Origin: a virus
Virus record (IMG/VR): IMGVR_UViG_3300009184_000286
Location: 1-20,276 of that record
Strand: one strand, 5' to 3'
DNA length: 20,276 bases
The notes beneath the pieces are model-generated. The model was not told the origin of the DNA, did not search any database, and worked only from the letters and a program-made list of their open reading frames with translations. Each line of letters starts with the position of its first letter. The stretch's first letter is position 1. The position numbers and the translations under genes are program-made. Shown here one piece after another: positions 1-500 of the stretch.

Positions 1-1
1 A

Positions 2-73
2 CCTAAAGAAGACAGTCAGCCAAAACAAGCCCCTAAGAAGGCAAGTTTTGATGATGAAGACATGCCTTTTTGA
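2..73 (+). CDS. ssb: Single-stranded DNA-binding protein, C-terminal end (partial)
   Basis: Only the last 23 codons are inside the window; the gene runs off the left edge. The visible residues are a Lys/Gln/Pro-rich linker followed by the tail DDEDMPF and a TGA stop. An acidic tip ending in Pro-Phe is the hallmark of bacterial and phage SSB proteins (E. coli SSB ends in DDDIPF). In that family the tip docks partner replication and repair proteins while the missing N-terminal OB fold binds ssDNA. Its position at the head of the + strand cluster fits a DNA-metabolism module. The identification rests on the tail alone, but the linker plus terminal motif is distinctive. Confidence 0.8.
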   Translation, partial: PKEDSQPKQAPKKASFDDEDMPF

Positions 74-87
74 GTTAATATAAACCC

Positions 88-143
88 GAGGGGAGAGCTG
101 TGCAAAGGATTTTCCTAGCTTGCAGACGAGCAGTTTTCCCCTC
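88..143 (+). promoter_or_regulatory. Long imperfect hairpin between ssb and the next gene, likely RNA structure
   Basis: Bases 88-100 (gaggggagagctg) pair with 131-143 (cagttttcccctc) over 13 consecutive positions. Two of these are G-U pairs (95/136 and 97/134), so pairing is complete only in RNA made from the + strand. Inside it, 101-109 pairs with 113-116 and 120-124 around a three-base loop, with a three-base bulge (117-119); 125-130 form an asymmetric internal loop. The arm is not followed by a T-run, so it does not look like an intrinsic terminator. It ends 7 bases before the AGGAG of the next gene. Possible roles are a 5' UTR translational control, a processing site or a small RNA; none is shown. 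Confidence 0.55.
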
Positions 144-161
144 ACCTAATAGGAGTTAATG

Positions 162-500
162 ATGAGTTTACTAACGAGCGTGTATTTTAAGGATACCTTT
201 AACAGACTCTTTGGTTCAGAGCCAAAGATGATGGTCAGGACCACAGATCCAGACACAAGCATGGATGCTGCTGAGAGGGTTGACTCAACAACACTTGAGC
301 AACAGGTCTATGAAGTTATTGCCAAGCATCCTGGCGGGTGTATTGCAGAGGAAGTTATGTCTTACTTCCCCAATCATGGCGTACAAACAATTAGTCCACG
401 ATTTGCGCCACTACTTCGCAAAGGTCTTATACAAGACACTGGCGAAAGACGCAAGGCTTCTACAGGCCATTCTCAACGAGTTTTGAAAGCAATTAAATGA
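162..500 (+). CDS. Winged-helix-like small phage protein
   Basis: About 112 residues. The second half, from roughly residue 43 (LEQQVYEVIAKHPGG) to the end, reads as a compact winged-helix fold: helix, a short turn, a probable recognition segment (QTISPRFAPLLRKGLIQ), then a basic wing ending SQRVLKAIK. The segment TTDPDTSMDAAE before it is a motif I associate with small phage proteins of this sort. AGGAG lies at 151-155, so the ATG at 162 has a 6-base spacer while the ATG at 159 has only 3; 162 is preferred. A further in-frame ATG pair at 228 lacks an SD. Its stop overlaps the next start (ATGA). DNA binding is inferred from fold resemblance only. Confidence 0.7.
   Translation: MSLLTSVYFKDTFNRLFGSEPKMMVRTTDPDTSMDAAERVDSTTLEQQVYEVIAKHPGGCIAEEVMSYFPNHGVQTISPRFAPLLRKGLIQDTGERRKASTGHSQRVLKAIK

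Follow-up and report, generated by a model that had tools for sequence, protein, structure and literature searches.

An intercistronic RNA hairpin at the 3' end of phage ssb genes, the family to which it belongs and its putative role as mRNA punctuation

The hairpin between ssb and the next gene

This analysis concerns an RNA hairpin at positions 88-143 of a 20,276-nucleotide (nt) stretch of viral DNA (IMG/VR virus record IMGVR_UViG_3300009184_000286, positions 1 to 20,276), which as a whole is referred to as the window. The hairpin lies between the single-stranded DNA-binding (SSB) protein gene ssb and a small gene that an initial annotation called winged-helix (WH). The features of the locus are listed below, P1, P2 and loop E being the base stem, the short second stem and the internal loop of the related RNAs described later.

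1-73, plus strand: 3' end of the ssb gene, which is cut by the window edge; the frame ends ...KKASFDDEDMPF and its stop is TGA at 71-73
87, plus strand: C before the base stem, present in 93 of 121 family contexts
88-100, plus strand: main-helix 5' arm, corresponding to P1, the former loop E and P2 of the family, from the fold and from P1 covariation
93-98, plus strand: GAGAGC, from the 5' side of the former loop E, against GAAAGC in relatives (L005 and others)
101-130, plus strand: variable hairpin top with a GCAA..TTGC stem and a GACGAGC stretch, from the predicted fold of 74-162
131-143, plus strand: 3' arm of the main helix, with TTTT at 134-137 where relatives show the AGTA loop side
144-146, plus strand: ACC right after the base stem, kept in long forms; ACC in 86 of 121 contexts
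151-155, plus strand: Shine-Dalgarno (SD) sequence AGGAG of the next gene, from the sequence
159-500, plus strand: small gene, WH according to the initial annotation; phrog_1123, function unannotated

The arm at 88-100 (GAGGGGAGAGCTG) pairs with 131-143 (CAGTTTTCCCCTC) over 13 bp, two of the pairs being G-U (95/136 and 97/134), and the predicted fold includes an inner stem (102-105 with 120-123 and 106-109 with 113-116), just as the initial annotation had read it. The folding check suggested there returned a stable structure: the plus strand of 74-162 reaches -29.8 kcal/mol against a shuffle mean of -18.6 (z -3.67) and that of 82-148 reaches -29.2 kcal/mol (z -4.35), neither value being equalled by any of 200 shuffles. 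In the same test the minus strand gave -21.3 kcal/mol (z -1.17), equalled by 24 of 200 shuffles. Because the minus strand also folds, if weakly, the strand preference is strong yet not absolute, and the claim that the hairpin forms only in plus-strand RNA stands as a bias and is too strong in its "only". A search for the arm motif with up to two mismatches found four matches in the window against a chance mean of 1.07, the two exact ones being the two arms. The stem starts 14 nt past the ssb stop and ends at 143, followed by 7 nt, the AGGAG at 151-155 and the ATG at 159; positions 144-150 read ACCTAAT, in agreement with the 7-base spacing and the lack of a T-run described initially. Without a T-run, the hairpin is not an intrinsic terminator, which would be a G+C-rich stem followed by such a run, and a chance hairpin is ruled out by the z-scores together with the covariation found in relatives. 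The hairpin of the window is real.

An RNA family shared by uncultivated phages

A scan with the WH protein gave 45 viral loci, with a homologous RNA upstream of many of them. The usual form of this RNA is C-P1-GAAA-GC...G(C/U)-N-AGUA-P1'-ACC: above the base stem P1 come an internal loop of GAAA against AGUA, the short stem P2 and a top that varies. The signature of the bulged-G motif is GAA opposite AGUA between two helices, and the internal loop is presumably such a motif (loop E, sarcin-ricin-type), an assignment made from the sequence signature, not from a structure. The opposed G-A, A-U and A-A are found in 30, 30 and 29 of 30 seeds, although the search pattern partly fixes them, and the signature is also kept in loci found through the protein alone. 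It is absent from the window's own clade: in the window, L001-L004 and L006-L009 the loop is replaced by pairing of GAGAGC with GUUUUC, resulting in one continuous helix, and L005, a close relative of this clade, retains the loop. On this comparison the window's element is a somewhat derived member of the family.

Members were collected by several routes. A loop-E DNA pattern gave at least 120 matches on viral contigs, and since it fixes parts of P1 and of the loops, the loop conservation in this first set is partly built in. Later patterns that left P1 free (in one of them only its innermost 3' base was restricted) found further loci, and the RNA was entirely unconstrained in the scans with the WH and SSB proteins. 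Four sequence types are distinguished: A (the window's), B (long, with GGATGC/GACGCAGC), S (short, about 45 nt) and C (GTTCATCCACGAGC). The covariance model R1, whose E-values are rough, matches the window at 28.7 bits (E 4.7e-4) and 30 of the 43 WH loci searched, L022 and L040 having been excluded as cut too close to the gene. It also matches 78 of 80 pattern loci (L052 has no match and L076 is doubtful, E 0.14) and 69 of 70 further ones (L188 is without a match), rates that are not independent because those loci hold the motif by construction.

Among 35 phage records searched with R1, 32 were positive, with a single copy in 29 of the 32; G025 carries two copies far apart, and G029 and G030 carry tandem pairs plus a weak third copy. 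Tandem pairs also occur in L105, L139, L164, L194 and L195. When nine annotated phage records were searched whole, the only positive was MW202879 (Manatee Spring), where the element sits between a gene for a hypothetical protein of 79 amino acids (aa) and a ribbon-helix-helix (RHH) gene. In the search for cultured phages, blastn of two elements against phage records returned partial matches only (35% or 25% coverage) and tblastn of the WH protein returned none. A single pattern match in a bacterial genome, from Thermus (L166), was not confirmed by the covariance model and was taken as chance. L061 holds two elements and two WH genes in inverted orientation on a stretch of about 1.5 kb, which may reflect either an inverted duplication or an artefact of assembly.

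No Rfam 15 family, STAXI included, matched the window at gathering score, and permissive Rfam 15 scans of the elements returned unrelated chance-level matches only, without STAXI. A description of the RNA was likewise not found in the literature searched, so that "not described" refers to that literature and to Rfam 15. The element belongs to a shared phage RNA family missing from Rfam 15, in keeping with the initial remark that no named element of this shape was known.

Covariation and the structure model

Test alignments were made with MAFFT without structure, and the controls consisted of slid partners. For the B form (25 sequences) 93.8% of cells were paired, with both-side changes at 9 of 16 pairs (controls 28-49%). 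The S form (15 sequences) gave 94.4% and both-side changes at 7 of 12 pairs (controls 30-41%), and the A form (36 distinct sequences) 97.4% and 2 of 13 pairs (controls 36-54%). P1 displays 44 distinct end combinations over 182 matches, nearly all complementary, the exceptions being mostly cut or misregistered ends, the window's own register included; in P3, one pair varies AU / GC / CG across the 25 B sequences. As judged from these alignments, P1, P2 and P3 covary, strongly so in P1 and P3. The initial annotation had named homologous genomes without covariation, or with the arms unpaired, as evidence that would speak against the hairpin, and the outcome favours it, the arms being paired and covarying in relatives. 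Two points stand against the structure model, namely that two inner P2b pairs of the B form fail in 6 and 8 of the 25 sequences and that GCAA and TTGC do not pair in several A forms. In the A-type top this pairing holds in 92.4% of cells and an alternative GCTTG/CGAGC hairpin, nearly invariant, in 98.3%, and covariation cannot separate the two. The chance-like pattern matches L052 and L076 were excluded from the P1-end counts and from the stop-gap, flank and RCC/SD counts given below; exact duplicate contexts were removed for these last three, and stems of less than 4 bp were left out of the flank and RCC/SD counts.

Genomic context

A scan with the SSB protein only covered the best 80 of 547 confirmed relatives, of which 79 were read (L221 ends inside the gene) and sorted into shape classes by a simple rule. 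The minimal loop-E hairpin, 28 nt long and closed by a loop of the GNRA kind or one like it (as in TGGG-GAAA-GC-GTAA-GT-G-AGTA-CCCA), occupied 26 loci, the long loop-E form 19, including one false (L276), and the helix form of the window 15; eight had plain hairpins (six of the GGGGC-UACG-GCCCC type and two plain G6/C6), ten were classed as other and one was cut short. Among the ten, an inserted gene precedes the element in L233 and L267, L257 and L259 resemble degenerate loop-E forms, L231, L235, L246 and L264 bear a larger folded RNA, and in L281 and L285 nothing was recognised. The site after ssb is thus nearly always filled by a fold, in several unlike shapes.

A folded RNA of about 130 nt lies right after the ssb stop in L231, L235, L246, L264 and L276. 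All five share a CATCTTGTATATGTG stretch, and their long-range arms vary in concert (GGCTTACAAC/GTTGTAAGCC and AATCTACA/TGTAGATT are examples). The L246 copy looks as though it had been inserted into a minimal loop-E hairpin, whose 3' half comes after it. An Rfam scan of this RNA in L231, L235, L264 and L276 gave no match.

Over 151 distinct contexts, the gene upstream of the element ends in an acidic, SSB-like DDxPF tail in 77 and encodes a phrog_27714 protein in 30, the remainder being HTH, SNF2, WH, Gam-like, HNH and other genes, some of them named from sequence; the labels follow rules on C-terminal letters and put the window and a few others under "other" (open reading frame (ORF) cut or misassigned). 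Whatever the upstream gene, the gap from its stop to P1 is mostly 4-14 nt. If that gene is not ssb, then ssb or phrog_27714 is often near, in arrangements such as phrog_27714-HTH-element, element-138 aa-phrog_27714-HTH, phrog_27714-80 aa-element-HTH and ssb-HNH-element-WH. The phrog_27714 proteins, whose function is unannotated, have an acidic tail or end in ...KY. At L048, L070, L093 and other loci such proteins, with conserved cysteines and many acidic-tailed, replace ssb before the element. The predicted structure of phrog_27714 was of poor quality (pLDDT 59), the top structure match had a non-significant E of 0.033, and a small phrog_18187-type SSB-like protein gave no structure match; therefore no structure-based SSB claim is made for either. 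An HNH-type gene, named from sequence, is inserted between ssb and the element in L085, L120 and L233.

The downstream proteins form 21 clusters, the largest being WH (57 of 106), HTH (11) and a DUF927 protein (8). The element is also found before a DNA polymerase A gene, 3' of the WH gene in L041-L044 and, in some cases, before an apparent terminator or a convergent gene. From these varied neighbours on both sides it follows that element and gene move independently within one replication module. A leader of the WH gene is ruled out, since the element also precedes other genes and follows WH in L041-L044; for the same reasons the fixed downstream gene expected of a riboswitch or cis-leader is lacking, and the suggestion that the element mainly controls WH translation is not supported. 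The remainder of the initial interpretation (RNA-level, strand-biased, not a terminator, possibly a processing site, of no named family) stands.

tRNA-like features

In 121 contexts, C precedes P1 in 93 and A, C and C follow it in 95, 110 and 102, with exact ACC in 86, and these C..ACC flanks are kept at every P1 length from 4 to 6 bp. RCC follows the stem in 65 of 78 contexts with an SD downstream and in 38 of 42 without one; sequestration of the SD by ACCU is ruled out, RCC being just as frequent where no SD follows. Compared with the features of an RNase P substrate (a G+1/C+72 pair and R73 C74 C75), ACC is present in those 86 of 121 contexts, most minimal forms have ACT, and UNCG-type hairpins are followed by AUU or similar, without CC. 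Passages of two reports describe pairing between RCCA and RNase P, hairpin substrates and a 12-bp ruler (PMC11143913, PMC12710915).

No tRNA cloverleaf was detected in the element: over 207 loci ARAGORN called no tRNA overlapping an element, its two calls being a gene next to the element in L097 and a gene of Burkholderia phage Bm1. In L097 (6541-6679) the ACCA end of a C-type element abuts the tRNA-Gly(TCC) gene. In phage Bm1 (L206, 2376-2448) a tRNA-Met lies 6 nt past the ssb stop and before a DNA polymerase gene. In L277, after position 1749, an apparent tRNA body (D, anticodon and T arms) lies inside a B-type shell, in place of P3.

Intercistronic punctuation and its alternatives

The best inference, tentatively held, is that the element would act in cis as an intercistronic RNA "punctuation" with protection of the mRNA 3' end, and it probably separates the expression of neighbouring genes. 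The transcript would fold into a stable stem-loop just past a stop codon, usually that of ssb, and this fold would set or protect the 3' end of the upstream mRNA, by blocking 3'-5' exonucleases and/or by acting as a processing site; protection of that end could in turn uncouple SSB levels from those of the protein encoded next. The member in the window would act through its plain 13-bp helix and most relatives through a stem with the bulged-G motif. Support comes from comparison: the covariation, the sense-strand orientation, the position near a stop, the mostly single copy, the lack of a T-run and the unlike folds found at the site. The variety of downstream genes, the tRNA gene in the same spot in Bm1 and the 85-nt gap at a place in the operon whose next junctions overlap also speak for it. 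Generic punctuation is preferred over recognition by a ligand or protein mainly because the site is nearly always folded but the fold varies. Several observations weigh on the other side. A pure barrier would not need a conserved loop E, GGACGAA bulge or C..ACC flanks. Of the 43 WH loci searched with R1, 13 are without the element, and it is absent from 8 of the 9 annotated phage records searched; the upstream gene in MW202879 does not resemble ssb, and in L067, L115 and L196 the element lies before the phrog_27714 gene, not after it.

Punctuation of a tRNA-like kind is a possible though doubtful reading. Here the stem and its 3' RCC would serve as a recognition site for host RNase P, and cleavage between C and G where P1 begins would separate the ssb mRNA from the downstream mRNA, as tRNAs do between mitochondrial genes. 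In its favour, the C and ACC around a P1 of 4-6 bp resemble N-1 and R73 C74 C75, RCC is kept with and without an SD, the element's ACCA end lies by tRNA-Gly in L097, a tRNA-Met occupies the site in Bm1 and L277 has its apparent tRNA body, all of which fits RNase P-type processing as described in PMC11143913 and PMC12710915. However, the minimal 28-nt form is short and mostly has ACT instead of ACC, the UNCG-type hairpins lack CC and ARAGORN finds no tRNA in the element itself. Somewhat more doubtful is a modular phage tRNA-like mark, in which a bulged-G stem with a C..ACC base would be cut by host RNase P to split an early polycistronic mRNA and its top would accept tRNA bodies or other folds.

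It is rather unlikely that the element is an operator at which a phage or host protein (SSB or a small WH/HTH protein, for example) binds loop E and the bulge and represses translation of the neighbour. Such binding would suit the conservation of unpaired positions in loop E and the GGACGAA bulge, although the search patterns built in part of this conservation, and also the tandem copies of five loci and the frequency of WH, HTH or RHH genes downstream. However, the proteins on both sides belong to several unlike families, the element is 3' of WH in L041-L044, and the window's clade retains the hairpin despite the loss of loop E. A trans-acting small RNA released from the 3' untranslated region of ssb is improbable: the fold is stable, conserved and single-copy, and an apparent intrinsic terminator directly follows the element in the L078 group and L093, but in most members an SD and a start codon come next, only 2 of the contexts counted have six consecutive T within 30 nt, and the members vary most in the exposed top. 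A riboswitch or self-cleaving ribozyme, compatible with the compact fold, conserved loops and tandem copies, is very improbable given the lack of an Rfam match and of a fixed regulated gene, and given that the 28-nt minimal form and plain hairpins occupy the same site. Least credible is a hairpin acting in DNA, such as a replication or primase site of the replication module, for although ssb, DNA polymerase or helicase genes adjoin the element, its orientation follows transcription, P1 and P2 contain G-U pairs, and in the window the minus strand forms a far weaker fold.

Relation to known RNAs

Among phage RNAs, the RNase III hairpins of T7 and lambda sib lie between genes or at 3' ends and serve in mRNA processing or stabilisation. 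The position of the element resembles theirs; they are not known to carry a loop E and bulge conserved to this degree. Of the named elements, the closest is the STAXI motif (Weinberg 2010), a candidate structured RNA which, in passages of PMC2864571, is often near SSB protein genes and can be arranged in tandem, as here, whereas the phage element is a nested hairpin, mostly single, with loop E. The same passages present the L17 downstream element as a structured RNA with a proposed function in a 3' untranslated region of bacteria; the phage element differs in lying by a different gene and in having no Rfam match. Model hairpin substrates of RNase P, as described in the sources cited above, and intercistronic sites of this enzyme resemble it in a hairpin with N-1 and 3' RCC and in an intercistronic position, but the phage element has loop E in its stem and, in most members, no T-loop.

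This analysis adds an RNA family common to many uncultivated phages, and marks a fixed site, at which a small ssb gene ends and phages repeatedly place one or another folded RNA. If it is punctuation, it would offer a compact natural part by which genes on a single mRNA could be expressed separately, and a case in which phage tuning of SSB levels can be tested. In mitochondria, tRNAs punctuate between genes, and the element would be a bacterial-virus parallel to this if host RNase P cuts it.

Neighbouring genes and additional matches

In relative L006 the ORF preceding the element ends ...KKASFDDEDVPF, and the homologous ORF of L007 matches the PHROG "single strand DNA binding protein" (phrog_18154, E 1.1e-13). 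A Pfam scan of the gene at 159-500 gave no match. The next junctions of the operon overlap (497/500, 676/679 and 902/921), whereas the gap between ssb and the next gene is 85 nt.

In six phages, matches to int-alpA RNA (RF02996) below the gathering score lie on the minus strand about 2 kb upstream of the element, at these positions of each locus:

L003, 999-1074, minus strand
L009, 1099-1174, minus strand
L015, 968-1043, minus strand
L016, 879-954, minus strand
L017, 784-859, minus strand
L034, 466-539, minus strand
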